Assembly: GCF_039555335.1 (NCBI RefSeq)
Contig: NC_092628.1
Location: 33,316,965 to 33,380,964, forward strand
DNA length: 64,000 bases
Source of the DNA: Amphiura filiformis
Taxonomy: Eukaryota; Echinodermata; Ophiuroidea; Amphilepidida; Amphiuridae
Reading direction: 5' to 3'
Positions 4,730-57,582 of this stretch are shown piece after piece. Numbering within the stretch: position 1 is the stretch's first letter; every line of letters starts with the position of its first letter. The notes beneath the pieces are model-generated. The model ran no database searches, had not been told where the DNA came from, and saw nothing but the letters and a program-made list of their open reading frames with translations. The translations under genes were made by a program, and so were the position numbers.

Positions 4730-4867
4730 ATGGCCGCACAAAAGACTGCACAAACTATTTCATTTCACGATGTGAATAGGAAAAGGATAGACATACATGA
4801 AGAAGACTCCGAATATAAAGAAGATTTCCTCTTTTTCCTCATCCGAAGACTGATTGAGAATATTTGA
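4730..4867 (+). CDS. Short 45-codon ORF upstream of receptor exon 1, doubtful
   Basis: An ATG in a strong Kozak-like context (caccatggcc) opens 45 codons ending in TGA. The product (MAAQKTAQTISFHD...) is not recognised. The second half lies in a roughly 77-bp segment that is repeated imperfectly just downstream (about 4790-4867 and 4877-4955), so the ORF may be fortuitous. If transcription of the receptor begins upstream of it, it would be an upstream ORF in the 5' leader. A second out-of-frame ATG sits at 4961. Confidence 0.2.
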   Translation: MAAQKTAQTISFHDVNRKRIDIHEEDSEYKEDFLFFLIRRLIENI

Positions 4868-4955
4868 ATTGGAAAAAGACACCTAAATGAAGAAAACTCC
4901 GAATACTTGGGAACTTTTCCTCTTTTTCTTCATCCAAATACTAATTGAGAATATT
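4790..4955. repeat. Imperfect tandem duplication upstream of receptor exon 1
   Basis: Two 77-bp units sharing tgaagaaractccgaatay, cctctttttc, catccraa and ttgagaatatttg. They end 20 bp before the receptor start codon, so they would lie in the leader or the promoter. Confidence 0.7.
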
Positions 4956-4974
4956 TGCAAATGATAATTTCGCG

Positions 4975-5032
4975 ATGCTGCTGTTTGTGATTTTCTTTGT
5001 TTCACTATGGATACCGGGTTTACCACAAGAAG
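4975..5032 (+). CDS. Receptor exon 1: signal peptide
   Basis: ATG followed by MLLFVIFFVSLWIPGLPQE, a classic hydrophobic leader, ending at AAG|GTAAGA in phase 1. This start was chosen because it yields a signal peptide and a phase that fits the next SRCR exon. An out-of-frame ATG 14 bases upstream gives only a short peptide. Linkage to exon 2 is inferred across a very long intron. Confidence 0.6.
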
Positions 5033-8000
5033 GTAAGATAATTATGTTTGCTCCTATTATTATATAATTATTATTCAATCTTTTTTTTCTGGATCGTTCT
5101 CACAAAATTCGCGAATAGCTTTAGTGTTCCATAGTTAAAAGGTTTGTCAGTCCGAAAGTAGGTTCGCTAGTCCGAAAAAATTCAGTTCGCTAATTCGAAA
5201 CATGAAAAGGGATCGCTAGTCCGGTTAGGGTTAGGGTTATGGTCATGCAGGGTTAGGGTTAGGATTATAAGGTACTACCCGGGGGTACTAGCTAACTTTT
5301 TGGACTATAGCGTACCTCCATGACGATAGGACTATATATAGCAAACCTTAATTGTTAATAGTAGAAGCATGACGATATCCGAGTCAGTAAGTAAGCAACA
5401 AGTAACATACACTTTAATAGGCCTAGGCCGATACAATGTAGGCCTACCACTTCAGCAAAAAGGTTGCCGCGAAATTGTCGTGAGCACGTTGCATCAACAA
5501 CTAAATTGGAATCACTTGTTTAGTTTTATAATTATATAAATCGATGATACGGGATTAAGATTTGCTTTGCCTTGCAAATACATTGATAAATACATTAAAA
5601 AGTTAATTCTGTAGTGAAAGCACACATACACAGCATCCTCCACTACACCCCCCCTGCCACACACACACCACACCCAACGTACACCTTTACGAATAAACAG
5701 CCAAACAACATGAGCAGGAGCAACAAAATCAGTATTGCTCTATCTGGGTTTATTCTGGGCCGTCTGCTTTTCGGCTTGAGAAAAACAATAGCAATATTAA
5801 TAAAATCCACTGGATCAGAAAATTGAGATATAGCAATACAACAATTAATTTTAAATTATTACAGTATATAGCTTGTAATCACCTTTCAAGGTTATTTTAA
5901 AACAAGCCCAATTCAAAATCAAGGTAAATAATAAAATCAAAATCTGCCCGGAAAACCCTTTGAACCCGCCTCTATCTTGGTATTGTTTGGAACAATAGAG
6001 AGATCAGGCTCTTTTTCAATAAGTCTAATAGGGTTTTGGTAATTAGTAGAGCTCCTTTAAGATGTGAACTAAGCTTAAATAGAGTCAAGGCAGTCTGGCT
6101 TTCCAAAATGTCTTTGTGGGCATACCTAATGTAGATACCGTGTGACAATGATCACAGAAGAAATACCAGAGTATAGCACAAATCGGTCCCATAATCATAC
6201 ACCATGTACATGATGTATATAGCAATCCACAAATCTTCCAACAAAATCTTGCTGCTTCAGAGAAGTCCCGTTTCGAGATACAGCAATGTTCCTTTTCACA
6301 GCACATTCGACTGCTCTCATACAACATTATATTGTCTTCAGTTTGAACATAGAGAGTGAAGGAGAGGTACCGTCTGACTGTATGACCATGATGAGCCTAA
6401 AGATATATTCTCTGCCTAAATTTATTATGTTATCATGGGTAGAAGAGCATTACAATTTTGAAGAAGTTGCCACAAGAACAATGATTACAAACTATTGGTC
6501 ATAATTATAAAGTGAACCCCTCCCAACATGCCCAAGGATATCCCTTACAAATCACGGTGACAAATTTGGTACCATCAAAGATACCACATAAATGAATTAT
6601 GCTATCAAGGCTGCATGTGAATCCCTTTGTTTTATTTTGTTCATGATGTCATTGATTGTTTTGCTATTGATTAAATTAGATTAGATTAGGTACAAAACCA
6701 AAGACATAGGCCTATAGATTGCCACCAAAAAGAATTGTATAAAAATGTACTTAAGTACCGTATGTGTTGCGGTGCTAGCGCTATATATAACCAATCATAT
6801 AATTTAGGAATAAGACAAGGGAATGTGTTAACCCTTTTGTACTGGTTATATTGGTTGACATATCTGGCATTTTTGGTTATCGAACCGCTTCCATGCAGTG
6901 GCCTATTTAGCGCGAGAAAAAATTTTGTGAGTCCAAAGAACATGGACACTACAACTTCACAAATCATACTTAAACTGTTTTCACACGAAACAACTTGCCC
7001 TGGGCCGTCGGTCCCATATCAAACGACGATTCATTTACACTCTTAAACTACAAAAGCATAGAAAGTCCGTTACACATGCTACAGACTGATCTATTTAAAA
7101 ATCAAAATAAAATCATATCATGGCATTTAATATACTTATTTCTCTCGATCAGTCATACTTCATTATTGTTGATTCTATACCAAGATACGACATGTTGTCA
7201 ACCCAATACTCCGTAAACTATATGAAAATGAAAATAATTATCTTTATTAAAATACCGGTTGACCAACGATTGTCCTCTGTATTCATTGTTATATTGGATT
7301 GGCTTTGTGAAGACAATCAAACTTTGGTGGTAATAAAATAGATCATTCCACAATGACCCAATGATCACAGACTATTTAAACTTCACCGAAGGGTACGTGA
7401 ATATTAAGGCTCTCTGGTCAACGTGGGAACTTACAGCCTTCTTCAATGTTTGATACACCAGGGATTCGAGTTTCGACTAAACTTACGACGCATCGTAAGT
7501 TCTAAGCCAATCATATATAGTTTAGGATTAAGGCAAGGGAATGTGTTAACCCCTTTTGTATTGGTTATATTGGTTAACATAATGGCATTTCTTGTTATAC
7601 TTGAGCCGCTTCCTTGCAGTGGCCTATTTAGCACGAGAAAAAAACCTGTGAATCCAAAGAACGTGAACACTACAACTTTTCACACGAAAGCACCCCCGGT
7701 AAGCGAAATAAACAAGTATATTATAGGTCTCTAGTGTTGAAGTTTTATTTTTAATTTTCAATATACTATGATGATGGTTGTAAGAATTAATGTAAATGTG
7801 TGTTTTCGTGATTTATGCTATCAACAAGATCACATTAGTATTACGTCAACAATAAAAGTGTGGGAAACGATAGTGATTAAAGCAATAATTGTCTTATTTC
7901 TATAAATAAACCAACGGATTGGAAGTGGCATTTGTTGCATGACCGAAGGTTACTCCCTGTGCATTGCCTTTTACTTTGATAAACTGTTTAAAGTAAATAC

Positions 8001-11000
8001 TCAATTCTGCGAACTTCTATTGACCCTAAATGACGAAGACACGCACCATAGACAAAAATTTAAATTGTTATATAAACCGTACCAATCACGGCAAAACTAT
8101 ATTGCAAAAAATAACAAAGTATATGGTTTACACTTACACTGCAACACCTCGGGTACAGTATAGACTGAACCATGCTAACCTTTTAATTGTTTTTTTGCCA
8201 TGTTTGCTGTTGCCAAAATTAACATGTTGCAAGTTTCATATCATATTTCATGGGGATTTCATGTGAAATTATTACTGCATCACATAATCATGATAATATG
8301 GACATTTTAAGAATTTACCATTCCCACGACATCTATTTGCAAGTGCCTTCATGATTTGTTTACCTGGTCTTTATATTTATCATTGTCTATAACGGCACTT
8401 TTTATTTTTCTGTACTGAATGTATGCGTACCAAAGACTCATTTTAATGAGTCTTTGGTATCAGTGTAAAGCATCACAGAGCGAGCCCCTTCCCCTATTTA
8501 TAACCAGGAGATCATATAATTTCTGTTTACCGTGTCGGGTGGCAGTCACATTACATAAATTGGGTTCAAACTGAAACTTTCACATGGTCATATTTTGAAA
8601 ATCTGTCAATCAAAATGAATCAAAATTATACACAGTATTACTTCATTATTCTACTCTGATGAGATGTCAATATCTACACGCTTACCTTACTGACACAAAT
8701 GAACTAGAGCGATAACCGCACCATAGCTGAACCATGTGGCTTTGGCAGTATATTGTGAGAAGCTGGCATTTTGAAAACTTGACTTTTGATCTCTGTATGA
8801 CCCCCTTAATGACCTTAAATGAATTTTAAAATATTTAAAACATGTTAAGAATGTCATAAGGATCATTGCATTTAAATTTCAGGTCAATTGAAGCATTTTG
8901 TAAACTTGACCTTTGACCCCTTTATTGCCCCTTAATGAACTTAAATGAATTTCAAAATATTTTCAAGATGTTTAGAATGTCATAAGGATCATTGCATTAA
9001 AATTTGAGCTCAATCGTAGCATTTCGGAAAACTTGACCTTTGACCCCTTTATGACCCCTTAATGACCTTAAATGAATCTTAAAATATTTTTTAAATGTTT
9101 AGAATGTCATAAGGATCATTGCATTTAAATTTCAGCTCAATTGGAGCATTTTGAGAACCACGACCTTTGACCCCTTTATGACCCCTTAATGACCTTAAAT
9201 AAATTTTTAAATGTTTAAAACATGTTTAGAATGTCACAACGATCATTGCATTTAAATTTAAGCTCAATCGGAGCATTTTCAGTTAAAATGACCTTTTTTG
9301 ACCCCTGTGACCCCTGGATGAACTCCGACGTTTGGAAATATTTTTATTATATTCTTTATGTTTTCCTCTTTCATATGACACCACTCATGGGGTCATACCT
9401 TCGTGGCATTTAGAGATATGTCCATTTCAGACCAAATGGTTAGTCAGTAAGCTAGTAACTTAGTAAGTAAGCTAGTAACTTAGTAAGTAAGCTAGTAAGT
9501 AAGCTAGTAAGTAAGCTAGTAACATTCACACTTATAGGCTGATACCATTTCATGGTTCAGCAAAAATGCAATGGTATGGAACCGTAATGTATCACATGTA
9601 CGTCACAGCCTAGAAATTTCGTCAATTATACTTTACAGTTTTAGGCACGTGAAGAAATCAAAACAAATGAAGGTAGGCCTATTCGTGAGAGAGTGTTCGG
9701 GCGCACCGGGGTGTATATGTGAGCTTATGTGTCCGTGTTCGCCTATATCATGTATATCGGGGTGCTATGTGTTTATGTTCGTTGTATGCATGAGTGGCAG
9801 TGCTGCTATTTTTGTGAGGCAATCCTGAGACAGGAAAGTCCACATTGCTGTTACAATTGCTTCACACACACACACACACATCAAATGGGCTGTGACTGTG
9901 ACATGAGGTCTTGACCTTGTGAAAAAAGTTTCTTTTTGAGGCCAGTTTATATTAGAACATCAATGTGGTATGTTATATCATAGACCCTAGAAATTAATTT
10001 CCAGGGTCTATGGTTATGCACCTGCTTTTGTTCTTTATAGCTTTTGATATGTTACACTCTGTTGAGCAGCTAAATATATCCCCAAGAAAGGGCTGCATTC
10101 AGCATGTTCAGTTATTATTGTTTAGTCGATCCATATCATTTTATCTTGAACTTTCAGGAAATGATTTTCACATGATTCATGCTGAAATGTATAGCGCAAA
10201 ATTAATGTGGTTGACTCATTCAATTGTAGTTTTAAGTTCCAATTTATAATCATTATTCTCCAAGACACAATTTTCGAATTAAAAAAACAAAAGCAAAAAC
10301 CCTGCTGGTATGGTGGTAAGTAAAAGCTAAGTATAAACCCTTAGCCGTAAACCCCAAGTATGTAGAAATAGTTGATTTCGCCCTAAGTTCATTTCGCAAT
10401 TGTTTCGCATTTCCTCTTTGATTTAATATAAAGAATTCACCAAAGCTATGCCCTTCCATAAAACACAACGCATCTCCAGTGACCGCTCATATCATCATAA
10501 TGTGAGATAAATAATTGAGGCTAGGAACTAGAAGTAGACTGTTCGCAAACCGAAACATCAAAAATTGCGAAGCACAGGTGATTTGACGGTATGCACATAA
10601 TAGAATATAGAGTGGGAGGTTTTACCCTCTGGTATGCATTAATAATCATGATCATTGCCCTTAGATCTGGAGCCATGAACGTCACGCTAGCATGTGTTTC
10701 TATTGTGGTTTGAAAAGAGCTTTAAAATAACTAAAACGTGGGTTTTCCGTTTCCGGGGTTATCTAACATGTAAAAGGCAATCACAGTAAGGGGGCATCAA
10801 TATTATGCGGGCTTCTCCGAGGCGCGGAACGCTGAGGGGGGTGGGTGCGAGAGAAGCTTTTGAAAAGCATGGATTTTACATGGATTTAATTATGAATTAA
10901 CCTTAAAATGATGAATATGATGAATTTTACCCTAAAATTATAATTTTTACCCTAAAAATATGATTTTCCCCTTAAATTATTGGAAGGGGGTCTAGGGTAC

Positions 11001-14000
11001 TTGGGCCCCACCAAAATTATTGGGGCGGCCCCCGGTTCCGGAGCCACTGCATCATACAAGAGATGCAAGGGATAGAGTTTATATAGTCCTCCATTCGCAC
11101 GGACACACACCCAAATAAGGGGTATTGACTGGTGCTCTGGTGTATGACTCTGGGTGTATATGAAGTGCACTATAAACCCTGTCCTATCTGGTTTCCTCAT
11201 GTGGTTCAAAGTTATATTAGGCGAAGAGTTGTGATGCAGTAGTGTTTAAATAGATTTAGTTCATAATAAACAGTGTGTTTATGTTTAATATTACAAATAC
11301 TTTGATGAGTAACTTTGATTTGTTAGAGTGCTTATGTGTTTAATTTATTTAGTGTTTCAATTAGCCGTTGGTATAGTGTTTACCTCATTTACGTAACATC
11401 ACAGTATACATTCAAGTGTAACATTCAAGTGTAAAAGTAAGGTTTAAGGGGGTACTACACCCCTGGCCAATTTTGTGCCTATTTTTGCATTTGTTTCAAA
11501 AATTATTAATTATAATTATAGCACATTGGTGACAAGTAAGATAAAATATATTATGTATATTATAGGGGCAAGGACTACAAGTACTGCACTGAAAATTCAG
11601 CAACTCAAGGGAAGTAGTTATTGATTTATTGATAGGCTAAAAAATATTGGTTTTCCCTCATTATTGACTGTAACTCCACAACTGTTGTCTGTGCTGAAAT
11701 AAAATTTCCAGTGCATTCGTTGTCGTCCTTGCCCCTATAAAACATATCTTACTTGTCACTAATGCGCTATAATTTTTGAGAAAAATGCAAAAATAAGCAC
11801 AAAATTGGGCAGGGGTGTAGTACCCCCTTAAAGCTGTTTAAAACTAGAGTGTAAGGCTATAATTGAAGACCGAATTAAAAAGACTAGTTTGCGTCTGACG
11901 TCCTGTCAACCAGACCAAAAATGCAGTACTGCGCAGTTCAGCAACCAACCACACCGCGCCGTTGCCCTGACGTCAGACGCAAACTAGTCTTTTTAATTTG
12001 GTCTTCAATTATATGCCTATACGTAATATCCGAAGGTAATATTTGACTGTGTTGTTAGAGCAATCAAAATAGAAAAACACAAAGAGACACAAAACGTGTT
12101 GAAATCCTAAAACTCTATTGTTGTATATTTTACTACGACAGGTTGTAGCACACCTTCGTTTTATAATGATTGTCCATGAATGACACCAAACATGCCAAAC
12201 CAATTTCAAGGCTATAGCTATTGTTATATTTCACCTAGCTTGTTTACACGCGATGCTTGGTATGTACGTCCGATGACATCAACAATCCCCCCCCCCCAAA
12301 AAAAAAGATCGTTGGCATGCAAAAAGTGGTCTTCACCCCTAAAATTTAGTGTGTGTTTTTTGTTGTTGATATTTTGGACAGTTTAACAACCAGTGGTTAT
12401 AACTTAACTTAGTTAATTATTTTAATTTGGACCTTTCTGGAAATTGTTATCCTGTTTTTATTATTAAAAGAGGAGGGACTTTAATTTGGAGGGGTTGCTT
12501 TTTCTTTCGTGGCAATTGACAAATTTGATGAATTTTGAGAATACGAACATATTGCTCAAAATAATGCGGAATTTGCTGAGTAGTCGTTCTTATAATTGTT
12601 TTATGTCCTACAGGATTTTTGTCTCGTTTATATGGTGCTATTTTGAAACACGTTAAAATTATTTTAAAAAGCATTTTTGACAAGCTAAGCTACAGTTGTC
12701 GACCTAATGCATGACAAAGGTAGATAATTAATAACAAAATGACTTAGATATATTACTGCGTGTCTATCCACCAAGTTTATTAGCATGGACATTATTTTCT
12801 AGATATTAAAATGTTGATCAAAAATCTTGGAAATTCCATGGATCAAATGACATTTTTTCTAATTATTATGCATATTTCATCAGCAAAGCTAATAAAGTTT
12901 GGCACAAAAACACTTTACTGAAATAAAAATCATATTATCCCAAGGTCATATTTCAATAGATAACTAATTGTATTCTATAAGTGAACGGTTTTAATTAAAT
13001 ATCTGATAATGTATAATTGCTATGATCTTTTGTTAACCTCACGATTTGCATCCTGACCGATGATTTGTAATCATTTATTGACCTTCACAAACTAATAATC
13101 GTGACACGATCGGGACCAATCAGACCCAAGGTAGGAGTCAATGTCAAATTGAGATACCGGCAAACATAATACCTATGAAACAAAGAGTAAAATACATACA
13201 AAATTTGGCATTGTAAATTTGGCATTGCGCCCTCGGAAATCAACTTCTAAAAATCACTGTTAATGGACGTCTGTCGGAAAAATGCGTAACCCCGGTGCGT
13301 ATAACAAAGGATATGAAAAAAAAGGGCATGTAAAGAAATTCAAAAAGTCTCCCAATGGGTCAACAGGGGTCACATTACATAACAAGGTTGAAATTTCAAA
13401 ATTGCTCAGATTTTGTCAAAAACCACGCTAAATTATTCCTCTGGTCATAACGATTCAGAAACAAGTATAGTTTGACCTATCTCCAACATACCGTTCTTGA
13501 GTTATTAGCAGAAAGGTCAAAATTGTGGGCCAGCCTGGTTTTTTTGCCCACACATGGGTCAACAAGTATAGGCATATGTGCTCCGATTTCAAATAAAAGA
13601 AGATGGTCATGTAAAATGAAGTCAAATAAGGAATACTCTGCACTGTCTAGAATGTTTTTTTATTGTCAACAGCAATAAAGTTTACCCCTCCATTGCAAGC
13701 TACAGGCCTACAATTCAGTGACCATGACCTATTTTATTATGTTTTCTGTACCGAAGGATGGTGAGAACTATTCCTTTATATTTTATTTCATTTCGCATGG
13801 CGAACAATTTGAGATAATAATACTTTCATTGAAATTGTAGCACTTTTTAGTTTCGGCGCGAACGAACATGCGCCAGAAGTGCCAGCCAGCTTATCGGTTG
13901 GTCATGCCGATGCACTTCTAATAATTGTCACGCTATGATTGTTCTTTTCAAATTTTTGGGTGGAGATGTTAACGGTCTGGGTCAGTTTATTTGTGTTACC

Positions 14001-20000: not shown

Positions 20001-23000
20001 GTTACAGATCGGTAAGCAGCTTTATAATCATTGTAGGTTCCCTTGTCCATGTTCATGAAATAGGAAGGGTAGACAAAATGGATTTGGGCACTACATGGCG
20101 TGCCAGCGCGTCATGGTCTAACGGCGAACCAACCCGCGAACAACCAACTTCATTTATAGTCACCTATTTTTTTTGTCACTTAGATTTACACGCCGCAGCA
20201 AGTCTAATTTTACGATCTGCCATTTGTGCAGGTAGCACAAAATAATATTTTCAGCATATTGCTCCAAATAACATTATTAAAATGAACCTGAAGCTTAAAC
20301 TAAGCTCCTTGTAAACTATATAATAGGCCTACATAATGTCATGACCAATCAGGGTCTCCCCGTCAGTCCGAAACACCGTCAGTCCGCGAACGTACCACCG
20401 TCGTCAGTCCGCATTTTTAGGGTTAGGGTTAGGTTTAGGTATTAAAAGGGTTAGGGTTAACATTAGGGTTAGGAACCCTAACCCTAAAAATTCGGAGTGA
20501 CTGTGGTTCGGACTGACGGGCCCGATCAATCAATGTCATGGGCGTCAATCTTAGGGAGGGACGTGTCCACCACCTTTTGGCAAAATTACCCATTTTCAGC
20601 CACTTTTTGAGAATTCAGGCCGAATGCCACAGGCTAACTTACCAAGGATTATTAATCATTCATTTGTAATATTTCTTTTATATTTCATTGTTTATAATTA
20701 TACAGAAGGAGACGTGCGTCTGCTACATGGTACCTCATCACATGAAGGCTTAGTCCAAATTTTCACGATAACAGTTGGGGCACCATTTGCCATGACGAAT
20801 GGGATAATGCCGATGCTTCCGTCGTCTGCAAACAACTAGGGCTGCCATACGAACGTGCTGCGTCTATTAGAGGTTCCTTCTTTGGCAGCGGCACTGGAGA
20901 GATATGGCTTGACGATGTAAACTGTGACCCGAGTGATGACAGGCTTATACATTGTGAACATCGAGGGTGGGGCGTGGAAAATTGTGATCATACATCGGAG
21001 GATGAAGCATCAGTTATTTGTTCAGGTAAAAATAGTTGCCAATTTTTATGTTTTTGTTTTGAACATCATTAAGGCAATAGAAACAATTATATAGTTCGAT
21101 CTTTCAATTGGCCATCGATGCTTGGTCGATCCTTATTATTTCTGAAATTAATTAATTGGCTATTGTTAATTGTGAAATCATATGAATATTTGCTACTTTT
21201 GATATTGACCAATATAAATTTAGCATTAATTCTGATTAATTAGTTGATAGTTCATTAATAACCAGCATCGATGGTTGCTGAACTAATATGGTTCTGGTGC
21301 CTAAATCAATGATGAAGTTGAGCTAATTGGTACATTTTGGTTGTGTCTTTATCATTCTTCTACTTCTTCTTTTAATCATCATCATTAGTATTATTATTAC
21401 TTTTATTATTATTATTACTATTATTATTACTATCATCATTATATCCTTTACTCAAGATATCAACAACGTTCGTCTCCTTGGACCAGCGCCTCATTTTGGA
21501 CGCATCGAAGTCCAGTATGGAGACACATGGATTCCAGTGTGCGGAAACACTTACGCAGGGATTCAATGGAGTGATGCTGCAGCAAATATTGTTTGTAAAC
21601 AACTTGGGTTTGAAGATGGTGGACAGGCTTTAGACAGATACTCAAGCGATTTAGTTGGAATATCGTCATCTGTGCCGTTTAGAGCTTATGACTTCACGGA
21701 TTGCAAAGCTGGTTAGTGTGCACTATTTTAAGAAAAAAAAAGAACAGCTGTTAACCTCCCTGGACACTAATGGTCATCTAACAGCATCTCTGATTGGTTG
21801 ATAACTTGAAATGTTCATTCCAATTGCCAATTATGACTAGGCTTTAAACTATTTATGGTCAAACTTGCATTTGCAGATGATCTTATTATTACCCTCCTTG
21901 ATTGGTTCAAAAGTGGACATAATATTCATTTTGGCCAATCGGCAGGTAGTTCTCATGGGGTTAACCAAACCAATGTGTTACAATTACGCAAAACAATATA
22001 AGCACAAATTCCGACCGGCACAATGCATAACCCCACTGGAAAAAAGCAAGGGAATGTGTCAGCGCGGGATTCGAACCCACGACCTTCGGATCACTTAACG
22101 GATGCCCTCACCATTAGGCCGCTAGCTCCTACTGTAAAACGGTGATTAAAACTGGGCATTAATGTAGGCAGTCGAGGTATGCAATACACACATACGCTAA
22201 AAACAAGTACATGAGATCATTATTGATGCTTAATCGTTTCCCCCAGCATCACAAGTTGATTGTTATTTTACGTAGATGTCTCATTAGGAAACGAATTTGG
22301 AGAAACACCTTCTGTTATTAAAATACTATGCTGAGCCACCAGCCTGGGTGGCTCACGCTCCAGTAATACATCAAAGAATGTCTTCCAATTCATGAAAACA
22401 AATAGATAATCAGCTTTTAGGATTAAAAGTTTAGAGGGAAGGTCTTGCTGCTCAGCGAGTGTTTTCTCCAAACTCATTCTCTAATGTAGTATACTTATAC
22501 CAAACGTTTACTTTTAATTTAAAGATACTCTAACATGCCTGTAGGCCTATATAATGTGTGTGTACAAAACTTTCTTGCAGATTTATTCGCTTTGCAGAAA
22601 TATCGTCAAAGTTTATGTTTAAGGGCTCTGGTAACAATGTATGCACAGTAGGGGACCTATTTTTTGTGGGACATGAGAGCACACCAGACATATCGAATTG
22701 TATTCTGAATGCGAGGAATGTCCTTCTTATATCAAATAATTTTGATTTTTATTGAAATTGGTGATTAAATACAAATTTTATGGTAAATGATTAAAAATTG
22801 ATTTTTTTTTTTCATATTTAACAGTCCTCGAAGTAAAATTTATAAATCTAATGACATGTACTTAAAGTGTATGTAGCTGGGAGGAAAAGCCGACGTTCAT
22901 TTGAAAATTTTGACATTTCGTATTGAAGATACACACCTTTTCCCCCAAAAGACCTCAATTTTTTAGGTGTTTGGAGGGGGGATCTAGATCTTCAAACGCC

Positions 23001-26000
23001 TGCTTTTCCGCCCATATATACACTTTAAGTAAATATCATTAGATTTATATATTTTACTTCGAGACCTATTAAATGGCAAAAATATCAATTTGTAATAACG
23101 TGCCATAAAATTTGCATTGTATCGCGAATACTGTGCAAACGTTGTTACCAGAGCCCTTAACAGAACAAAATGGAGCAATGTAATACATAACTCGCTAACG
23201 CAAAATCGGAATCAACTGAAAGTTTCTTCGTGGATACTCGTATCTACACCAAACTAGCATAAAAAGAGGATGCTATCACACTTTTAATGCTGACTCCTTA
23301 CTTATCACTTATAACAGAGACCGCGAGTATTTCAGACTGTTTGTACAACGTGAATACTATAGCATGTACCTCCGATAGACAGGCTGTCGTATTCTGTAAT
23401 GGTAAGTTATTTAAATCGAAATTTTTGTTACGGGCAAACAAATATCATAAAGTAGAAGTATTTCAACCTGCAAAATTGATTCTAAAATCGCCGTAAATCA
23501 CCAGCTAATGGAACAGCAACATTTTGCTTTTCATGCATGTGTAACCAGGAAAGGGAAAGATAACATTTTGTTCTACGTTGCTAGTATACACTCCGTGTCT
23601 TAACAATTTAGGTTCCAATGATAAATAAACTTCAAATTGTAAAATTGTTTTATGTTTTACTGTTAGGTATATGGGAGGGAAGTAGTAATCGCCTCTTTTA
23701 TATTTCTTTTTCAAGGTGACTTACTCAACGGGTTCCGGTTAGTTGATGGTAACATAGAAAGACCAGACCCTAACACTGGACGACTCCAAATCCGCCTTTT
23801 CTCACACGAGACTTACCTCCCTTACGAGTGGTTGGACATATGTGGTGAGGATATCGAGAACGACCAGGCATTCGCTTCTTATACCTGTAAGGAGTTAGGC
23901 TACGCGGATGGACATGCTGTTTACTATAATATGCGTGTCGCGCGACCTAATGTAAAAGTATCTCAGTGTAATGCAGGTGAGATTTTGTTCAATCGTCCAA
24001 CTACAAAATAAATGTCAGCCAGTATAGTTTGTCTAATTGTGGTGAATTGGTCGAATTATGGACTGGTATTGGGCTATACCAGATGAAATCCACACTACCC
24101 CTGGGGAAGATTTTGGAAATATTTTCCACAGGGGAGTGTGTTTTTCAAATGTAATTGGTTAGGGTTAATCATTTTGAAACTCATACTCCCCTGTATTATG
24201 GCTTTACCTATATCTTCCACAACTGGAGTAAGTATTTCAAATGGAAGTTACCCAATTCCGTCTGTGGAAGACTTTAGCTAAATCTTCAACAGGGGTAGTG
24301 TGGATTTTAAACGGAATAGCACATTCTGTGAATAGTAATGACCTCTGAAAATTGCGGTTATTTTGAAGCGGGCTTGACGAAGATTCCCTTTTCTAGGTCT
24401 TGTTGTTTTTGTTGTGTAAAGACTTAATGTAAAGAGTATCAAAACGAAATTTCTGACATACAAACTGGTTCCCGCCAATTCTAACCACAATTGATATTTT
24501 TCAATATTTCATCACAGATGGATGCACATTGGAAGTGCAAGAACTCTCATGCAGTCGCGCTGCTGGAGTTAGCTGCTTTAGTAAGTCATTTACAAACTAA
24601 ATAATCCGATTTTTAAATCTTATATGATTTATATTTCTCATCGAATGCACTAACTTTAAGGAATACCACTAAATCACCATTTCTTACTCTTAACATTATT
24701 AGCCTTGTTGAAGTATTGCGGGCACAAAAGGAGAGTGCGTACTTTGATTTGGGTAATCTTTTGTATGCTTTCTCAACCTGAAAAGATTACCCAAATCAAA
24801 GTACGCCCTCTCCTTTGTGTCCGCCATACTCAAAAAACTAATTTTATTCGTTGTATCTCCCCATAGCTTCTAGCAATTGTCCAGATGGATATACAGCCTT
24901 CCAAAACTCCTGCTACAAGGTGTATGAAACACTCTTAACAAGATGTGATGCCGAGTTAGTTTGTCAATCTAGTGGTCATTTGGTAGATATAACAACATAT
25001 GAGGAACATCAGTTTGTGACCAACCTCTTAAGTAAACAATGGGATCGTTCTCGAAGACTAGGCAAGTGACTGAACACAATAATTGGGGTTGGCAGCATGC
25101 AATGGGAATCTGGTATAGTATATTATGGAGTGTAAACTACCTCCAACAAAAATTCGAATGCCATTAGGTAGTTCCTTAGGGATGAAATCAAAACTCGCCC
25201 GGTGGTTGACCGCCGGTCGTCCGGTTTCTTTTGTTCTAAAGAATGGTCAACCGCCGGTCGAGATTTGATTTCATCAGAATATAAAACATGTCACCGCCTT
25301 TTTCAAAATCGATGGTAAAAACCTCACTCGGTCATTCAATCAAACAGTGCATATAGCATACCATGCGTGTTGCGGGATATCCGGACTGTCGATTTAGTGA
25401 AAAACCAGACGCCTTATGCAAAAGTCACTTCTTAGAAACTACATGCTTGCGCAATGACCCTGTATGTACTGCAACCTGATGCGATCACCTCAGTTACAGA
25501 TAAAAAAAACTTCAGGGGAACTCAATTTGTGAAGTGAAAATGCAGATTTATTCAAGGCGGAGGTAGCGTCAGTGCAACAAACTGTCATTTACATTATAAG
25601 AGCATCCTGAGGATATAAGGCGAATAAGAAGGTCACACATCTTAGGAGCTATATCATGCTTGCACAATGATATCTTGAAATAGTAGCTAATTGATCCATT
25701 CGCCGTAGAAGGGGTGGTGTAGCAGGATTAACTACAATAGCAATAGGTTAAAACAATTTTGGAATATATCGCCCTGCACTACAAGCAGGTTGCACTCATC
25801 ACCTGAGTACGTCTGCAATCATATAGATTGAATACAATACCGCTATTTTCAAAGATACTAATCTTACAGGTGCATGCGAGTGATTAGTATGATGGGAATA
25901 TTCTATAGAATTACGATCCAGGTATTTATCCCTGGTCTTTGACATATAGGGGCCTATGGTAACCTATCTAATATACAGGTACCACGTGAACGTACCAGTG

Positions 26001-29000
26001 CAGTGCGATATATTCAAAAATTGTTTTAACCTATCACAGGTCATTTACAGCAGACGGAACGGAATATAAACACAAAATAATAAAGTCATTAGTCATTCTC
26101 TAATAATTAAATACAATAAAGTAGATCATCACTTTCTGTGTGACCCACAGGAAATGGAGATGCCTGGTTTGGTTTGATGACACAATCTGGCAACACTCTT
26201 ATCTGGTCCGATGGCTCTCCATTAAGCTACGAATCATGGGCTGGAAAAGCGAGGAAAGAAGGACATTTATGCTTCCATATGACAGCAAGATACGGATATG
26301 GCTGGGAAGAAAGCGGCTGCGGAATCAGGAAAAGATTTGTGTGTGAAGTTGAAGGTAAATGTTCGACACTTTTTGCCACATAATGTTTTAGTAATAAAGA
26401 GGTACTTCGTGATCCACAGCTTCACCCCCGCTCACTCTAAAGAAACCTGGGACTACATCAGGATTGTGTACAATAGGATTGTTGCAGATTCAGTCGTTTG
26501 ATAAGATATTGTCCTATTTGTGTTTTCGAGCTGTTGACTGCAGCCCGATATTGCAGCACAGTGCAATTGCCTTTGGGGCGCTACAATACATGTAATAACG
26601 TAACGCGTCAGAGGTAACGCGTATATATCAATGCCCAAATCAACCGAAATTGTGGAAAGAAGTGTTTTTCGAGGATATCTTTTGAATTGCACCCTATAAT
26701 TCCAATGATCACGCTGAATGTATTGTTGCAATTCCTATTTGTGGAAGCCAGCTAATAATAGATAATAATGATACATCTTGTGTTATCTTTTTCGTGAAGT
26801 TATGTCTTAATTTCATTTCATGCCATTGATCATTTGATTTTTATCTTCTTCAATTTGTTATAGGCGATGGCAGTATGTATCCACAAGCCCGTAATCCTCT
26901 TTGCACACCCACCACTCTACCTCCACCGACAACCACCACACCACCTCCACCAACCACAACAAAATCTACCACTACAGAACGGCGAACAACTACCAAGCCT
27001 ACAACAACACGAACAACCACAACAAAACCCACCACAGTACGGCGAATAACTACCAAACCTGCAACGACGACACGACCAACCACAACAAATCCCACCACAG
27101 TACGGCGAACAACTACGAAACCGGCAACGACGACACGACCAACCACAACAAAACCGACCACAGTACAGCGAACAACAACTACCAAACCTGCAACAACACT
27201 GAAGAGGACCAGTACTTCAGAAACAACTACAGGTACAACTAGTGTCCCCACAACCACCACAATAAATATCAAAATTGACGAGTTTCAAAGTCTACCTCCT
27301 AAAGCATCTCAGACAATGCCAATTACAGGTACGGTAAAACTATTATACATATAAGGTACAGTCCACCGGAGTTAATGCAGATTAATGCTTCAGCACTGCC
27401 CCCAACATTTCAAATTGGAGAATGTGCCACACTAACCAATGTGAGTAACTTGAGGGCAGTGTTGAGGTCAGGCCAGAATTCAAATATAATTTTAGTTTGT
27501 GATTAATAAAAACAGTTGAAAAAAAGACTTTGTCCAGAAACAAGCCAAAATATAGAGCTATTTCATTATGAAAGAAATTAAAAAATAAACAAAACAAAAG
27601 GGAAAAAGAGTGTGTTTTCCCAGAAATACCAGTTAACACTACTGATTATTTATACTTAGCATAGGACAGGTATTGAAAGAGCATTTGGCCTGGAACTCAA
27701 TCTGCATTAACTGAGGTAGACTTCACCTACAACTCATGTATGATTACATGCAAACAAAATGCATAATATTATCAGTTAAAATCATTTCTAAATCGCTATG
27801 TTCTGCCTTTATATTCAATTAATAATTTATACGAGTGGATATTTATACGAATAGTGGTAGATAAAATTGAATAAAGAGAACTTCATTCAACACTACACTA
27901 TTTTTTTCGCACACCTGTAACGTTTTCACTTCAGCAGATTGTAATGCTGTGAGGATATCTTGTCTACAATCAGGATATCCCTTTCTGATGACGTCATGTG
28001 ATCGATCATACATGCAGTAGCATTTTTGGATTCTCACTCATATTCTCACAGTAATTTTGTTTCTGATTGTAATAACTTTTTCATTACTTCTAATTCTTAC
28101 AACAGGCATTCTCGTCGGTACCTTGATAGCAGTATTCCTAATTGTCTTCTTGTGTTTGGGAGGAATTGTCTTCGTAGTCAGGTAAGACGGGACACTCGTA
28201 TTAGCTGCCTTTGGACTATTATAGCTTTACCCTTTTTAAAACGGGAATGAAGTCAGTTGGCAAAATAGTTTTCATTTAAGCAGTCAAGTTAGCTCAATCG
28301 ATAAGGCATTCGAGTGATTCGACTATATGGTGCAAGAGGTCTACCAAAGAAAGGCGACCTCTCTCTCATGACAAACTACCGTGGTATTTCGCTTATGTCC
28401 ATTGCCGCAAAAGTGTACAACAAGATCCTTTTGAACAGGATCCGACCTCACATTGATCCTTTACTGAGAAGTAACCAGGCTGGCTTTAGATCAGGTCGCA
28501 GCTGTGCTCAGCAAATACACATTTTGAGGAGGATCATGGAAGGCTTCAAGGAGTACCAACTTCCCTTGACAGTCACCTTTGTGGACTTCAAAAAAGCCTT
28601 CGACTCCATCAACAGGTCCGTCATGTTTTCAGTGCTGCGGCATTATGGAATACCAAAGGTTGTGGTAAATGCCATCCAGCTGCTCTACGAGGACTCCAAT
28701 AGTGCCGTTATGGTAGATGGAAGTATCTCAGAGCCTTTCCATGTAACATCTGGAGTGCTTCAAGGTGATGTGTTGGCACTGTTCCAGCTCATTATCCTGG
28801 TAGACTACCTTCTGAAGAAATCAACTTCTGGAATTGACGCTGGAATTGTTACCTACCCACGTCGGTCAAGCAGGTATCCTGCTAGGATGCTGTATGACCT
28901 GAATTTTGCTGATGATATTGCCCTGTTGGAATCTTCCATAGCCCGGGCCCAGTCGCAGCTTACTAGGACTGCAACTGCAGCAGCAGATCTAGGCCTTGTC

Positions 29001-30530
29001 ATCAGCGCACCTAAGACAGAATATATGACTGCAAACTGTAACGCCCAACCAGCACTTGAAGTCTGTGGTAGTACCATCAACCATGTCACAGCCTTCAAGT
29101 ACTTAAGGGTTCAAAGATGGGCTCTAGAGCTGGAGATCTAAAAAGAAGAAAAGCACTAGCCTGGGCAGCTTTCTGGAAACTGGAACGCCTTTGGAGAAGC
29201 CCATCCCTGCCAATCGAAACAAAAATCAAGATGTTTGAGACAACTTGTGCATGTACTCTCTTTCTGTACGGGTGCGAGTAATGGGTAATCAACAAGGACA
29301 TGGAAAACAAGATCAATGCCTTTGCAACATCTTGCTACAGTCATGTTAAACATCAAGCGTGTGGATCGGATTCCAAATGAAACCATCTACAATCTGACCA
29401 ACACCACTCCACTGGTTGCCAGAGTCAAGATTCATCAACTCAGTTTCTTGGTCATATTCTGCGTCTGTGAAAGAATATGCCCTTTATATTCCACAATATG
29501 GGAAGAGGAAACCGGGACGGCCGCGCACACTGTACTTACAGTATGTCCAGCACCTCCTGGGAGATATACTGAAGGGATGCTACAGCCAAACAAACTTGTT
29601 TCGCTATGCCCAAGATCGCAATAGTTGGAGAAAGCTTGTAGTCGCATGCTCCGCAGCCGACTGATGATGATTATGCAAGAGATCGCTGGAAATTAGGAAC
29701 TTATAAACCCTTTATTCTGAATAAAATTTGAAATGCACTTCTGAATGTTGCATAGCCGTTATGTCACTTTTGTCACATATATGTCATTTATTTTCAATGC
29801 ATGTTCTTCGTTTTATTACAGACGCAGAAGACTCGCATCTGATCCCGAAGATCATAAAGAGTTTGTTGAGAAATCAACGTATTCAAGTGACCAAGCCACC
29901 AGCGAAACCGGTTCTGAAGAAACGGAAGAATCTGGGTCGTCATCCGGGAACATGTTCCGTTTTGCCCCCTATCGCAGTAGCAAACGCGTTAACCCAGATG
30001 AAAAACTTAAAAAGAGTACGTATAAATATAACGGTGCATTTGAGCCTGTGTATGACGAATTGCACGAAGGCAACATTTACAGCGAATCACCAACTGCTAT
30101 GTTGCCAAAATATATGCAGGAAAACGGATGGAATGGCGATGTGATTTACGCTTCGACAATAGAGGTACAAAATGCCGATAATGAACCACGATCTGTATCC
30201 ACACCTGGCATAGATCAAGATGCAAAAGATGAGCACTACGGAAGTCTGCACAAAAAGAACTTACGCGGGGGTTTAAGAGGAAATTCACCCGAAAGTATAA
30301 AGGGTAGTTTGCGGGGCAGCTTACGGGGAGGTTTACGGGGCAGCTTACGTGGTAGTTTGCGAGGAAGCCTTCGTGGAAAGAATGCGAGCATTCGTAAGAC
30401 AGGTTCCGTCGTTCAGAAGCGGAAGCAGCCTAAGCGTCCAAAACTTCAGAAAGCGAAAAGTGTAAAGAAAATGCCAACAAAAACATCAGACGATATTAAG
30501 AGTGTACATCTAGACAGTGTGTTTTATTAA
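4975..30530 (+). CDS. SRCR-SRCR-SRCR-CTLD-mucin stalk-TM receptor gene (11 exons)
   Basis: Predicted type I membrane receptor, a candidate pattern-recognition or adhesion molecule at the cell surface. Exons: 4975-5032, 20706-21025, 21457-21711, 23318-23401, 23716-23976, 24518-24580, 24867-25061, 26151-26354, 26864-27328, 28106-28181, 29822-30530. Approximate residues, counting one missing base as present: signal peptide 1-19, SRCR1 21-126, SRCR2 127-239, SRCR3 240-347, C-type lectin domain 348-480, Thr/Pro-rich stalk 481-635, transmembrane helix 637-659, basic tail 661-896. Every extracellular junction is phase 1, typical of shuffled domains; the TM/tail junction is phase 2. Exon lengths sum to 2690 nt, one short of 897 codons, which matches the single-base loss seen in exon 2. 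SRCR and CTLD assignments rest on their cysteine spacing and WGT, LDDVNC, GWG, WFGL and WSDG motifs. Ligand and signalling partner are unknown. Exon 1 is linked only by phase and orientation across a 15.7-kb intron. Confidence 0.82.
5105..5345. repeat. AGTCCGAA / TTAGGG composite repeat, copy 1
   Basis: ttcgctagtccgaaaaaatt and cgctagtccgg precede a GGTTAGGGTTAGGG core; the other side has ggactatagcgtac. Related composites lie at 16750-16830 and 20345-20525. Confidence 0.55.
6785..6965. repeat. Dispersed direct repeat, copy 1 (partner at 7505-7685)
   Basis: About 170 bp shared with 7505-7685 at an estimated 85-90% identity, e.g. agacaagggaatgtgttaac and gcagtggcctatttagc. Both copies read G-L/I-RQGNVLT in one frame, resembling the RT motif GxRQGDxLS, so a LINE origin is possible but unproven. 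Confidence 0.65.
7505..7685. repeat. Dispersed direct repeat, copy 2
   Basis: Partner of 6785-6965; contains aggcaagggaatgtgttaac, gcagtggcctatttagcacg and tccaaagaacgtgaacacta. Confidence 0.65.
8428..8459. repeat. Perfect 32-bp palindrome
   Basis: Two 15-base arms (taccaaagactcatt and its complement) around TT. Could form a short hairpin; function unknown. Confidence 0.85.
8760..9310. repeat. 127-bp tandem repeat carrying DR1-like sites
   Basis: Four to five units of about 127 bp, starting near 8781, 8908, 9035, 9162 and 9290 when aligned on tgacctttgacc. Other shared words are aatgtcataaggatcattgc and gaccccttaatgacctta. The complement GGGTCAAAGGTCA is a perfect nuclear-receptor DR1 half-site pair in units 2 and 3, and degenerate in the others. 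Confidence 0.8.
9440..9525. repeat. Short tandem repeat (AGTAAGCTAGTAA)
   Basis: Eight or so interleaved copies of gtaagctagtaa and cttagtaa. Simple minisatellite with no coding potential. Confidence 0.85.
9979..10012. repeat. 34-bp near-perfect palindrome
   Basis: catagaccct ... agggtctatg around gaaattaatttc, with one mismatched pair. Possible hairpin of 17-bp arms. Confidence 0.8.
10925..11052. mobile_element. hAT-like MITE end
   Basis: Minus-strand end CAGTGGCTCCGGAACCGG (plus 11032-11049) followed inward by GC-rich then AT-rich sequence with repeated ccctaaaattat. A partner end was not found. Confidence 0.35.
11444..11831. mobile_element. TTAA-flanked palindromic MITE, copy 1
   Basis: Starts TTAA-GGGGGTACTACACCC and ends GGGTGTAGTACCCCC-TTAA. 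The arms stay complementary inward (ggggcaaggacta near 11566 and its complement near 11730). TTAA at both borders suggests a piggyBac- or Kolobok-type target site. Copies at 57638 and 63834. Confidence 0.85.
11858..12013. mobile_element. Palindromic MITE, 156 bp
   Basis: About 45-bp inverted arms (tataattgaagaccgaatta ... and its complement ending at 12013), including agactagtttgcgtctgacg. The loop of about 65 bp is GC-rich. Lies 26 bp from the preceding MITE. Confidence 0.85.
14400..14525 (-). mobile_element. tRNA-derived SINE fragment
   Basis: Minus-strand tRNA-like head: B box in ggctcgaactcgcaatcc, A-box region in ggcagagcccgtaccgctg. Shares agcgccttgaccaagagcac with the SINE at 150-480. 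Confidence 0.55.
14526..16370. other. AT-rich intronic stretch, nothing recognised
   Basis: No coding, RNA or repeat signal that I could support over this interval beyond short AT-rich words and a single TAGGCCTA each near 14707 and 15625. Confidence 0.4.
16375..16575 (-). mobile_element. tRNA-derived SINE
   Basis: Minus-strand B box in ggttcgaacccacaaccttt, A-box region near 16550 (cattgagctaagcg). The body extends left to about 16375 with cgtagccaggattagctccc. Confidence 0.55.
16750..16830. repeat. AGTCCGAA / telomere-like composite repeat, copy 2
   Basis: cattagtccgaaaacc followed by a CTAACCCTAA-type core; partial compared with the copy at 20345-20525. Confidence 0.4.
17005..17150. mobile_element. 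GC-rich palindromic MITE, diverged copy
   Basis: gatgaagtcgaaactcgacc at one end and ggttaatcgccggtcgatca at the other, with several CCGGCGGT/ACCGCCGG words inside. Compact relative at 25181-25275. Confidence 0.6.
17330..17620. repeat. Degenerate CCTAAC telomere-like tract
   Basis: Many AACCCTAA/TAACCCTGAC variants on both sides of the MITE at 17431-17568. Too degenerate to be a recent telomere insertion. Confidence 0.6.
17431..17568. mobile_element. hAT-like MITE
   Basis: Ends CAGTGACGTAGC and GATACGCCACTG, an imperfect terminal inverted repeat of the common CAGTGGCGTA type, inserted in a telomere-like CTAACC-rich tract (17330-17620). Interior has a G run and is non-coding. Confidence 0.55.
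17690..17995. repeat. 20-bp minisatellite (GTCATGGTGGGTCAAGGG)
   Basis: About twelve imperfect units. One frame is open and reads VSWWVK-like repeats, but there are no splice or start signals and the open frame is explained by the period. Confidence 0.85.
18221..19465. mobile_element. Outer DNA element with CACTGTAAAAACA inverted ends
   Basis: Perfect 13-bp terminal inverted repeat (18221-18233 and 19453-19465), with TA on both sides. Each end zone has several GTGTTTAGAAA or ATGTTTAGAAT words. The middle is replaced by a second element at 18314-19338. Confidence 0.75.
18314..19338. mobile_element. Inner element with CAGTGCCGCCGA inverted ends
   Basis: 12-bp perfect inverted ends (18314-18325, 19327-19338). 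Contains 15- and 12-base G and C runs near 18330 and 19230. An array at 18370-18790 repeats GGGCCCGTAAAA and TCTTTTCTTTGC words in both orientations, and acgcttcgcgcgcatttgtc occurs at two places (about 18938 and 19084). No transposase frame. Confidence 0.7.
19660..20080. repeat. Degenerate direct duplication
   Basis: agatcggtaagca(tgg) and cggtaagcagct near 19690-19725 recur near 20008-20025, with similar following sequence (catg...aatagcaagggta / aataggaagggta). About 300 bp apart; origin unclear. Confidence 0.45.
20345..20525. mobile_element. Palindromic AGTCCGAA element with TTAGGG core, copy 3
   Basis: Outer arms cccgtcagtccgaaacac / ggttcggactgacggg and an inner palindrome from (TTAGGG)n to (CCCTAA)n around 20440-20490. 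It lies about 180 bp before receptor exon 2. Confidence 0.65.
20706..21025 (+). CDS. Receptor exon 2: SRCR domain 1, with a 1-base frameshift
   Basis: Acceptor ttatacag, donor TCAG|GTAAAA, phase 1 to phase 1. Reads GDVRLLHGTSSHEGLVQI, then, after a shift of one base at the TTTT run 20760-20763, WGTICHDEWDNADASVVC, a FFGSGTGEIWLDDVNC stretch, HRGWGVENC and ASVICS: a whole SRCR domain with six cysteines. The exon is 320 nt where a phase 1-1 exon needs 321. Without the missing base translation stops at TAG 20837-20839. Confidence 0.85.
21026..21456 (+). other. Receptor intron 2
   Basis: AT-rich, with a (TTA/ATC)n microsatellite at 21365-21445 ending 11 bp before the acceptor. Nothing else seen. 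Confidence 0.7.
21457..21711 (+). CDS. Receptor exon 3: SRCR domain 2, N-terminal part
   Basis: Acceptor actcaag, donor GCTG|GTTAGT, 85 codons, phase 1-1. Contains VRLLGPAPHFGRIEVQYGD, then WIPVCG, SDAAANIVCKQLGFEDGG and a final FTDC, the expected order of an SRCR domain. The acceptor is preceded by an ATT/TAT-rich microsatellite rather than a normal polypyrimidine tract. Confidence 0.85.
22025..22130 (-). mobile_element. tRNA-derived SINE in receptor intron 3
   Basis: Minus-strand tRNA-like head with A box in gcggcctaatggtgagggc and B box GGGTTCGAATCCCGCG (plus about 22066-22081). Acceptor-stem pairing is absent, so not a functional tRNA. Confidence 0.6.
22621..23158. mobile_element. Long imperfect palindrome in receptor intron 3
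   Basis: aagggctctggtaacaatgt at the left is matched by complement at the right (acgttgttaccagagccctt). A second pair of inner arms (ctcgaagtaaaatttataaa, ctaatgacatgtacttaaag) runs toward a centre near 22950. Non-coding MITE-like structure. Confidence 0.75.
23318..23401 (+). CDS. Receptor exon 4: SRCR domain 2, C-terminal part
   Basis: Acceptor ataacag, donor AATG|GTAAGT, 28 codons, phase 1-1. Reads SISDCLYNVNTIACTSDR followed by QAVVFCNG, the conserved last third of an SRCR domain, completing the six cysteines begun in the preceding exon. Confidence 0.85.
23716..23976 (+). CDS. Receptor exon 5: SRCR domain 3, N-terminal part
   Basis: Acceptor tttttcaag, donor GCAG|GTGAGA, 87 codons, phase 1-1. 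Begins GDLLNGFRLVDGN, continues with GRLQIRLF, LDICGEDIEND, SYTCKELGYADGHAV and VSQCNA. This is the most divergent of the three SRCR domains: it lacks the usual WGTVCDD tryptophan context. Confidence 0.82.
24082..24308. mobile_element. Palindromic MITE in receptor intron 5
   Basis: Ends gatgaaatccacactacccc and ggggtagtgtggatttt; inside are paired CTTCCACA/TGTGGAAG words. A fragment of the same family lies at 32880-33025. Confidence 0.7.
24518..24580 (+). CDS. Receptor exon 6: SRCR domain 3, C-terminal part
   Basis: Acceptor atcacag, donor TTTA|GTAAGT, 21 codons, phase 1-1. Reads DGCTLEVQELSCSRAAGVSC plus F. It closes SRCR3 with a much shortened C-terminal third, missing the usual aspartate-rich segment before the final cysteine. 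Confidence 0.75.
24711..24839. mobile_element. 129-bp palindrome directly before exon 7
   Basis: Arms of about 55 bp, including gagtgcgtactttgatttgg and its complement, around tgtatgctttctcaacc. It ends 27 bp before the lectin exon and overlaps the probable branch-point region. Confidence 0.8.
24867..25061 (+). CDS. Receptor exon 7: C-type lectin domain, N-terminal half
   Basis: Acceptor ccccatag; 65 codons. Shows SNCPDGYTAFQNSCYKVYE, CDAELVCQSSGHLVDI and EEHQFVTNLL, the long-form CTLD start with the added N-terminal cysteine pair. The donor is ACTAG|GCAAGT, a GC-AG intron with otherwise perfect consensus, and phase 1 continues correctly into the next exon. Confidence 0.85.
25181..25275. mobile_element. 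95-bp GC-rich palindromic MITE
   Basis: gatgaaatcaaaactcg and cgagatttgatttcatc as inverted ends, then GGTTGACCGCCGG / CCGGCGGTCAACC words. In the GC-AG intron between the two lectin exons. Confidence 0.8.
25690..26053. mobile_element. Palindromic MITE, related to 47425-48046
   Basis: Shares aactacaatagcaataggtt, aatatatcgccctgcactac, gattgaatacaatac and ccacgtgaacg words with the two copies in the sulfatase gene. Inverted arms are recognisable but worn. Confidence 0.6.
26151..26354 (+). CDS. Receptor exon 8: C-type lectin domain, C-terminal half
   Basis: Acceptor gacccacag, donor GAAG|GTAAAT, 68 codons. Contains GNGDAWFGLMTQSG, LIWSDGSPLSYESW, a HLCF cysteine, WEESGCGIRKRFVCE. Neither an EPN nor a QPD triplet is present at the sugar-specificity loop (SPLS instead) and the WND calcium motif is absent, so canonical calcium-dependent sugar binding is unlikely. 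Confidence 0.87.
26864..27328 (+). CDS. Receptor exon 9: Thr/Pro-rich mucin-like stalk
   Basis: Acceptor gttatag, donor ACAG|GTACGG, 155 codons, phase 1-1. After a short segment with one cysteine it becomes Thr/Pro/Lys/Arg repeats of the form TTTKPTTVRRTTTKPATT, recurring about four times at the DNA level with a period near 66 bp. Such stalks are usually heavily O-glycosylated and lift the ligand-binding head off the membrane. The last 40 residues are less repetitive and lead to the membrane. Confidence 0.8.
27329..28105 (+). other. Receptor intron 9, nothing recognised
   Basis: AT-rich; no coding or repeat signature I could support. Confidence 0.5.
28106..28181 (+). CDS. Receptor exon 10: transmembrane helix
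   Basis: Acceptor cttacaacag, donor TCAG|GTAAGA, entering in phase 1 and leaving in phase 2. Encodes ILVGTLIAVFLIVFLCLGG then IVFVV and an arginine stop-transfer residue: one membrane span of about 23 residues with no charged residue inside. Confidence 0.85.
28311..29680 (+). mobile_element. 5'-truncated RTE-like LINE in receptor intron 10
   Basis: Reverse transcriptase from motif 1-2 (LMTNYRGISLMSIAAKVYNK, AGFRSGRSCAQQIHILR), VDFKKAFDSI, SGVLQGDVLALFQLI, LNFADDIALLES (catalytic FADD box) through the thumb. A frameshift near 29105 and a stop at 29279 interrupt the C-terminal region, which ends with GRPRTLYLQYVQHL, WRKLVVACSAAD and a TGATGATGAT tail. The endonuclease is missing. Sense to the host gene. 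A tRNA-like A-box string (tagctcaatcgataaggc) abuts its left end. Confidence 0.85.
29822..30530 (+). CDS. Receptor exon 11: cytoplasmic tail with GSLR repeats
   Basis: Acceptor tttattacag, stop TAA at 30528-30530. Begins RRRRLASDPEDHKEFVEK directly after the membrane span, then a Ser/Glu-rich segment, tyrosines in YDEL and YGSL contexts (YxxL sorting or SH2-type motifs), then a 12-bp repeat at 30261-30377 giving LRGG, SLRG, SLRG, GLRG, SLRG units. A Lys/Arg-rich segment follows and the protein ends in VFY, a possible class II PDZ ligand. No death, TIR or kinase domain is present. The length of 236 residues and open frame through repeats argue that it is maintained. Confidence 0.8.

Positions 30531-57271: not shown

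Positions 57272-57582
<311 letters not shown>

Follow-up and report, generated by a model that had tools for sequence, protein, structure and literature searches.

A predicted compact membrane receptor of Amphiura filiformis with the SRCR and C-type-lectin-like domain order of Bark proteins and a one-base frame break

Three SRCR domains followed by one C-type-lectin-like domain (CTLD) and a membrane span are an arrangement known from the Bark proteins. SpBark of the mud crab Scylla paramamosain is reported to be of type I topology and to carry, in sequence, a signal peptide, three SRCR domains, a CTLD and a membrane span, and its authors give Drosophila Bark the same domain order (PMC6716108). 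The crab protein has 2,863 residues, with SRCR domains at 106-210, 976-1082 and 1797-1914 and the CTLD at 2512-2608, and its knock-down on crab hemocytes was reported to reduce phagocytosis (PMC6716108). Drosophila Bark beetle, or Anakonda, is described as working at tricellular junctions and as having CUB domains and parallel beta-helices in an extracellular part built as a triple repeat (PMC11698045, PMC8006247). SRCR and a CTLD are also combined in one chain in a single predicted protein of the ctenophore Mnemiopsis (PMC11797021). The class I scavenger receptors CD163, CD5 and CD6 resemble the protein described below in having several SRCR domains but differ from it in having no CTLD. All three are type I membrane proteins. 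Human class I scavenger receptors are defined by SRCR domains only (PMC5119243); the protein described below carries a CTLD outside the cell as well.

The gene studied here lies in a window of 64,000 nucleotides (the whole stretch of Amphiura filiformis DNA that was analysed), which is animal-like in its long introns and few open frames. We recovered 11 exons on the plus strand between 4975 and 30530 (Table 1) that encode, in order, a signal peptide, three SRCR domains (SRCR1 to SRCR3), one CTLD, a Thr/Pro-rich stalk, a membrane span and a cytoplasmic tail, about 900 residues in all when the part before a frame break in SRCR1 is counted. We read them, at a probability of roughly 0.55, as a single gene for a predicted type I membrane receptor that belongs with the SRCR/CTLD mosaics of invertebrates, presumably a compact scavenger/lectin receptor of phagocyte type. 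A first-pass annotation of this DNA had proposed a receptor of the same order, which is still the best reading; its view of the order as novel, its failure to notice the frame break and its inference of protein binding did not hold. The order itself, which the annotation had treated as unfamiliar in combination with a 236-residue cytoplasmic tail, is the one already described for Bark proteins (PMC6716108). In the parts of the SRCR and C-type-lectin literature that were covered (in the contexts of echinoderm, amphioxus, sea urchin, starfish, sea cucumber and Anakonda) there is no description of the SRCR-CTLD order with a stalk and a long tail; Table S6 of PMC10855680, which gives SRCR domain compositions for 29 species including sea urchin, may include this arrangement. 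Hence the order is known in outline, and its compact version, with a stalk and a long tail, is new as far as these searches of the literature go. Such a form would help to ask whether the order has a single origin or was put together several times by exon shuffling.

Table 1. Exons of the predicted receptor gene and the frame switch in SRCR1, in positions of the window
Feature	Position	Strand	Content
Exon 1	4975..5032	+	start codon; signal-peptide-like segment of 19 residues; split codon at the end
Exon 2	20706..21025	+	SRCR domain 1 with one-base frame break; 320 nt
SRCR1 frame switch	20746..20770	+	short stretch, one-base break
Exon 3	21457..21711	+	SRCR domain 2, first part
Exon 4	23318..23401	+	SRCR domain 2, second part
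Exon 5	23716..23976	+	SRCR domain 3 (divergent), first part
Exon 6	24518..24580	+	SRCR domain 3, second part
Exon 7	24867..25061	+	CTLD, first part; GC donor
Exon 8	26151..26354	+	CTLD, second part; without EPN/QPD or WND
Exon 9	26864..27328	+	Thr/Pro-rich stalk
Exon 10	28106..28181	+	membrane span
Exon 11	29822..30530	+	cytoplasmic tail; stop at 30528-30530

The ten introns are bounded by GT donors in nine cases and by a GC donor in one (context AG/GCAAGT), and by AG acceptors throughout. Scored with a simple weight matrix, whose values are our own approximation of the metazoan consensus, all ten donors rank in the top 0.0-9.5% of the 3597 GT dinucleotides of the window (the GC donor being scored on its flanking bases, and the donor of exon 1 lying in the top 0.1%) and all ten acceptors in the top 0.2-10.9% of the 3370 AG dinucleotides. 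With the frame taken after the break, phase 1 holds at all six module junctions from the signal peptide up to the membrane span, and the sole exception among module junctions is that from span to tail, which is in phase 2. The nine exon joins that remain after the break are in frame and give 863 codons without a stop. The earlier claim of phase-compatible exons in this order therefore stands for the exons, their order and their joins, and fails for the frame inside exon 2; the tail has the 236 residues given for it if the split Arg codon is counted. The intron at 25062-26150, inside the CTLD, is of the GC-AG type and would be missed by gene finders that accept only GT-AG.

The frame break itself was overlooked in the first reading. 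Exon 2 has a length of 320 bases, though phase 1 at both ends requires a multiple of three. Its first 19 residues, GDVRLLHGTSSHEGLVQIF, are in frame with exon 1 and look like the beginning of an SRCR domain; the rest of SRCR1, from about 20764, lies in a different frame, and translation straight from exon 1 runs into a stop within exon 2. Thus, the DNA as given fails to encode the whole receptor protein. The piece after the break matches PF00530 with an E value of 3e-24 (85.7 bits, profile positions 15-100), and the two pieces joined match it with 1.3e-28 (99.7 bits, positions 2-100). As joining completes the profile and raises the score from 85.7 to 99.7 bits, both pieces belong to one SRCR domain that is broken between them, and this gain suggests that the break arose recently, or is an error, in a gene that is otherwise intact. 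Its most likely source is either a sequencing error or, in the sequenced animal, a non-working allele. If it were instead real and fixed, the locus would be a pseudogene or null allele making no receptor, as the one-base break and the stops that follow in the frame of exon 1 could indicate; this is quite unlikely, given that the lesion is the only one in about 2.7 kb of coding sequence, that the splice sites look intact, that the domains past the break, SRCR3 excepted, still score strongly, and that a broken reverse-transcriptase copy sits within an intron. A single defect in a gene that is sound elsewhere would point to a sequencing error or a null allele more readily than to an old pseudogene. 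Two ways around the break were considered and set aside: 1) programmed -1 frameshifting, for which inspection by eye found no canonical slippery heptamer in SRCR1 and of which we know no case in the family of this receptor; and 2) an alternative acceptor for exon 2 that would avoid the break, since the AGs ending at 20747, 20753 and 20774, checked by hand, all lead back into the exon 1 frame when spliced to exon 1. In practice the break serves as a warning, as automatic gene finders are likely to divide or truncate the gene.

Over the model after the break, Pfam lists SRCR with an E value of 1.1e-39 and three stretches at E up to 1. Three SRCR domains had been claimed from the start, and searches with the SRCR and Lectin_C models place SRCR1, SRCR2 and the CTLD above the curated cut-offs and SRCR3 below, so that the third can be kept only as a divergent member. 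SRCR1 exceeds the PF00530 cut-off of 26.1 bits with or without its N-terminal piece, and has cysteines at 28, 41, 73, 83, 93 and 105 of the joined domain, the six-cysteine count of group A. SRCR2, encoded by exons 3 and 4, also has six cysteines and scores 54.2 bits (E 1.9e-14). For SRCR3 alone PF00530 is not listed, and SRCR_2 reaches an E value of 0.015 with 16.4 and 16.3 bits against a cut-off of 27; among PDB sequences it matches MARCO (E 0.038). SRCR3 is nonetheless taken as a divergent SRCR domain, since: 1) its alignment with SRCR2 scores 73 against a shuffle mean of 27.1, a value reached by none of 1000 shuffles, and that with SRCR1 is reached by 2 of 1000; 2) it keeps six cysteines; and 3) it has in common with SRCR2 an intron two residues after the third cysteine, in phase 1. 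The PDB relatives of the SRCR part as a whole, 26 distinct sequences, include CD163 (the best match), CD5L, SCARA5, CD6, DMBT1 and MARCO. In a placement by eye, SRCR1 presumably has His, Asp, Asp, Asp and Asn and an acidic stretch at the cation positions of SALSA SRCR8; we take it to keep most of the cation-site residues with His in the place of D1019, and SRCR2 and SRCR3 to have lost most of them and kept few. The cations through which SALSA SRCR8 binds its ligands are reported at site 2 (D1019, D1020, E1086) and site 3 (D1020, D1058, D1059, N1081), and the D1019A change abolished binding (PMC7043408). With His in this place, calcium-bridged binding by SRCR1 is therefore uncertain. The expanded SRCR domains of sea urchin are described as encoded by one exon each (PMC10855680), a pattern that fits SRCR1 and not the intron-split SRCR2 and SRCR3.

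Further copies of these domains were sought in the window. A tblastn search with the domains of the model itself recovered only its own exons at E < 0.01. Of the 12 stop-free open reading frames of at least 80 residues that lie on the plus strand wholly within intron 1 (5033-20705), the 10 scanned gave no SRCR or lectin match, one of them matching an unrelated family below the cut-off; short extra exons in this intron could escape both kinds of search. Rfam gave no match at gathering scores. Intron 1 also holds a tandem repeat of 127 bp in about four copies (8766-9279).

The CTLD matches Lectin_C with an E value of 6.8e-11 over the model after the break and of 3.2e-12 alone, and exceeds the PF00059 cut-off (47.6 against 22.6 bits). 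By eye it has the cysteines of the long form, and in the translation KAR stands in the place of EPN and WEE in that of WND. Hence the signature of calcium-dependent mannose or galactose lectins (EPN or QPD, with WND) is absent from this domain, as the first-pass annotation had said. Among the PDB matches listed (60 of 95 distinct sequences), its relatives include mannose-receptor-family proteins, snaclecs, lithostathine and DC-SIGN. The further step, that a CTLD of this kind binds protein rather than sugar, does not follow, since the CTLD of SpBark likewise lacks EPN, QPD and WND and yet reportedly binds LPS and acetyl-LDL and, with calcium, agglutinates seven of nine tested microbes (PMC6716108).

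That SRCR3 finishes at an exon end and the CTLD opens a new exon raises the alternative that the model merges two neighbours, one gene with the SRCR domains and another with the CTLD, stalk and membrane span. The donor of exon 6 scores weakest of the ten (top 9.5%), and read-through of this exon would reach a stop within about ten codons. Against a boundary here, the interval between the SRCR and CTLD exons (24581-24866) contains neither AATAAA nor ATTAAA, a supporting rather than decisive absence, given that AATAAA occurs inside other introns of the model; the first AATAAA downstream of the stop codon is at 30938. Exon 1 is, as had been proposed, the first exon to be preferred: at the thresholds used, no other exon in 3000-20700 combines phase 1, a signal-peptide-like segment and a good donor, and no rival of this kind was found in 20000-28100 at looser thresholds. 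Furthermore, the SRCR part alone would have no anchor and the CTLD part alone no signal peptide. A pair of genes is accordingly very improbable, and we retain the single receptor gene.

Exon 9 encodes 65 Thr and 23 Pro in 154 residues and contains a tandem repeat with a 63-bp unit in 3.9 copies (26949-27194), so the length of the stalk may vary between individuals. The membrane span reaches a Kyte-Doolittle mean of 3.24 over 19 residues and is followed by RRRR. The tail has ten Tyr, with YxxL sites at YDEL (in PVYDEL) and YGSL (in DEHYGSL), and its last 95 residues, which hold RGSL repeats (about 30303-30376), have a net charge of +22. YxxPhi sites show no excess (2 against 1.79 expected from shuffles), and matches to ITAM, ITIM, NPxY and di-leucine motifs are absent from the tail. 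The pattern [DE][DE].Y..L occurs once, in DEHYGSL, and is matched by 0.85% of 2000 shuffles, and R..S.P occurs at two sites (0.95% of shuffles); both percentages are weak, as they come from twelve motifs that were chosen after the tail had been seen.

Dectin-1 and CLEC-2 are small type II proteins without SRCR domains. The CTLD of Dectin-1 lacks the classic sugar motif, and a hemITAM is a single YxxL site that recruits Syk and has acidic residues before its Tyr. The likeness of our predicted receptor to these two lies in a CTLD without the classic motif and a cytoplasmic YxxL with acidic residues ahead; the residue directly before the Tyr is Gly in Dectin-1 and His here, and the strict form [DE]{2,3}GY..L is absent from the tail. 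Both proteins are described as hemITAM lectin receptors with a cytoplasmic YxxL (PMC5932189). For a hemITAM the tail offers DEHYGSL as a candidate site, along with a second YxxL in YDEL, and the 0.85% value belongs to one of the twelve post-hoc motifs. That the locus encodes a working signalling scavenger-lectin receptor, with a hemITAM-like tail and repeats switched by phosphorylation, is a tentative and rather improbable elaboration judged from sequence features; if true, a Dectin-1-like circuit for uptake and alarm would have been built independently on a head of three SRCR domains and a CTLD.

By its domains the model shows the Bark/Anakonda order of three SRCR domains, CTLD and span, with SRCR3 weak, and like the Drosophila protein it has a single membrane span. 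As described for SpBark, its three SRCR domains share little identity with one another but keep six cysteines, and its CTLD is of the long form. It differs from SpBark, in a comparison of domain descriptions, in that the three SRCR domains and the CTLD are directly consecutive in a protein of about a third the length of SpBark, and in its Thr/Pro stalk and long tail. The CUB domains and beta-helices that lie between the SRCR domains in Bark proteins of about 2,900 residues were not found in the model at E up to 1. As this defining feature was looked for and is absent, membership of the Bark family is not claimed.

The same comparison bears on the possibility that the protein is an adhesion or junction receptor like Drosophila Bark/Anakonda, in which the head would make trans contacts between cells and the tail would anchor a junction complex. 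The recognised-domain order is that of Bark, Aka is reported to mediate homophilic adhesion (PMC11698045), and protein binding would be in keeping with a CTLD that has no sugar motifs. We consider this role unlikely: neither CUB nor beta-helix families are listed over the model at E up to 1, SpBark, whose SRCR domains lie 766 and 715 residues apart, has a far longer extracellular part, and a Thr-rich stalk and a tail of 236 residues are not described for Bark in the parts of the literature covered. The phagocyte-type receptor is supported by the crab protein of the same recognised-domain order, which is reported to promote phagocytosis of bacteria (PMC6716108), and we would place the action of the predicted protein closer to that of SpBark on crab hemocytes than to that of a junction protein. 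Points against such a receptor are the interruption of SRCR1 in the protein as sequenced, the tail's lack of a YxxPhi excess and of ITAM, ITIM, NPxY or di-leucine matches, the apparent loss of most cation-site residues in SRCR2 and SRCR3 with His at the D1019 place of SRCR1, and the report that the SRCR domains of SpBark showed much weaker or no binding to LPS and ac-LDL and caused no agglutination (PMC6716108).

As a scavenger/lectin receptor, the protein would sit on phagocytes or a barrier epithelium, where SRCR1 and the CTLD might bind polyanionic or microbial surfaces and the stalk, probably O-glycosylated, would lift the head off the membrane. The tail could then drive uptake and signalling through the YxxL tyrosines of PVYDEL and DEHYGSL, and the basic RGSL repeats may contact the membrane in a manner switched by a kinase through phosphorylation of Ser. 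Mosaics of SRCR and lectin-like domains are one route to wider recognition in animals without antibodies.

The window contains several other features. A reverse-transcriptase fragment at 28305-29138 (RVT_1, E 1.8e-28), which by eye continues to about 29690, belongs to a broken element of non-LTR type that lies in intron 10 of the receptor model. A sulfatase gene has exons on the minus strand at 40262-50914 (by eye from 38608), convergent with the receptor gene; PF00884 was matched in all three pieces scanned, in two above the cut-off and in one below. Between these genes, a degenerate tandem array at 35117-36848, with units of about 144-150 bp, is partly open on the plus strand as Ser/Lys-rich repeats; three of its open reading frames were scanned and matched no family above the cut-off, and the array could be a minisatellite or a repeat-coding exon. 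Two head-to-tail copies of 230 bp at 54326-54787 are 99% matching and represent either a very recent duplication or an assembly artefact, and a long GAT microsatellite of about 101 units occupies 57274-57579.
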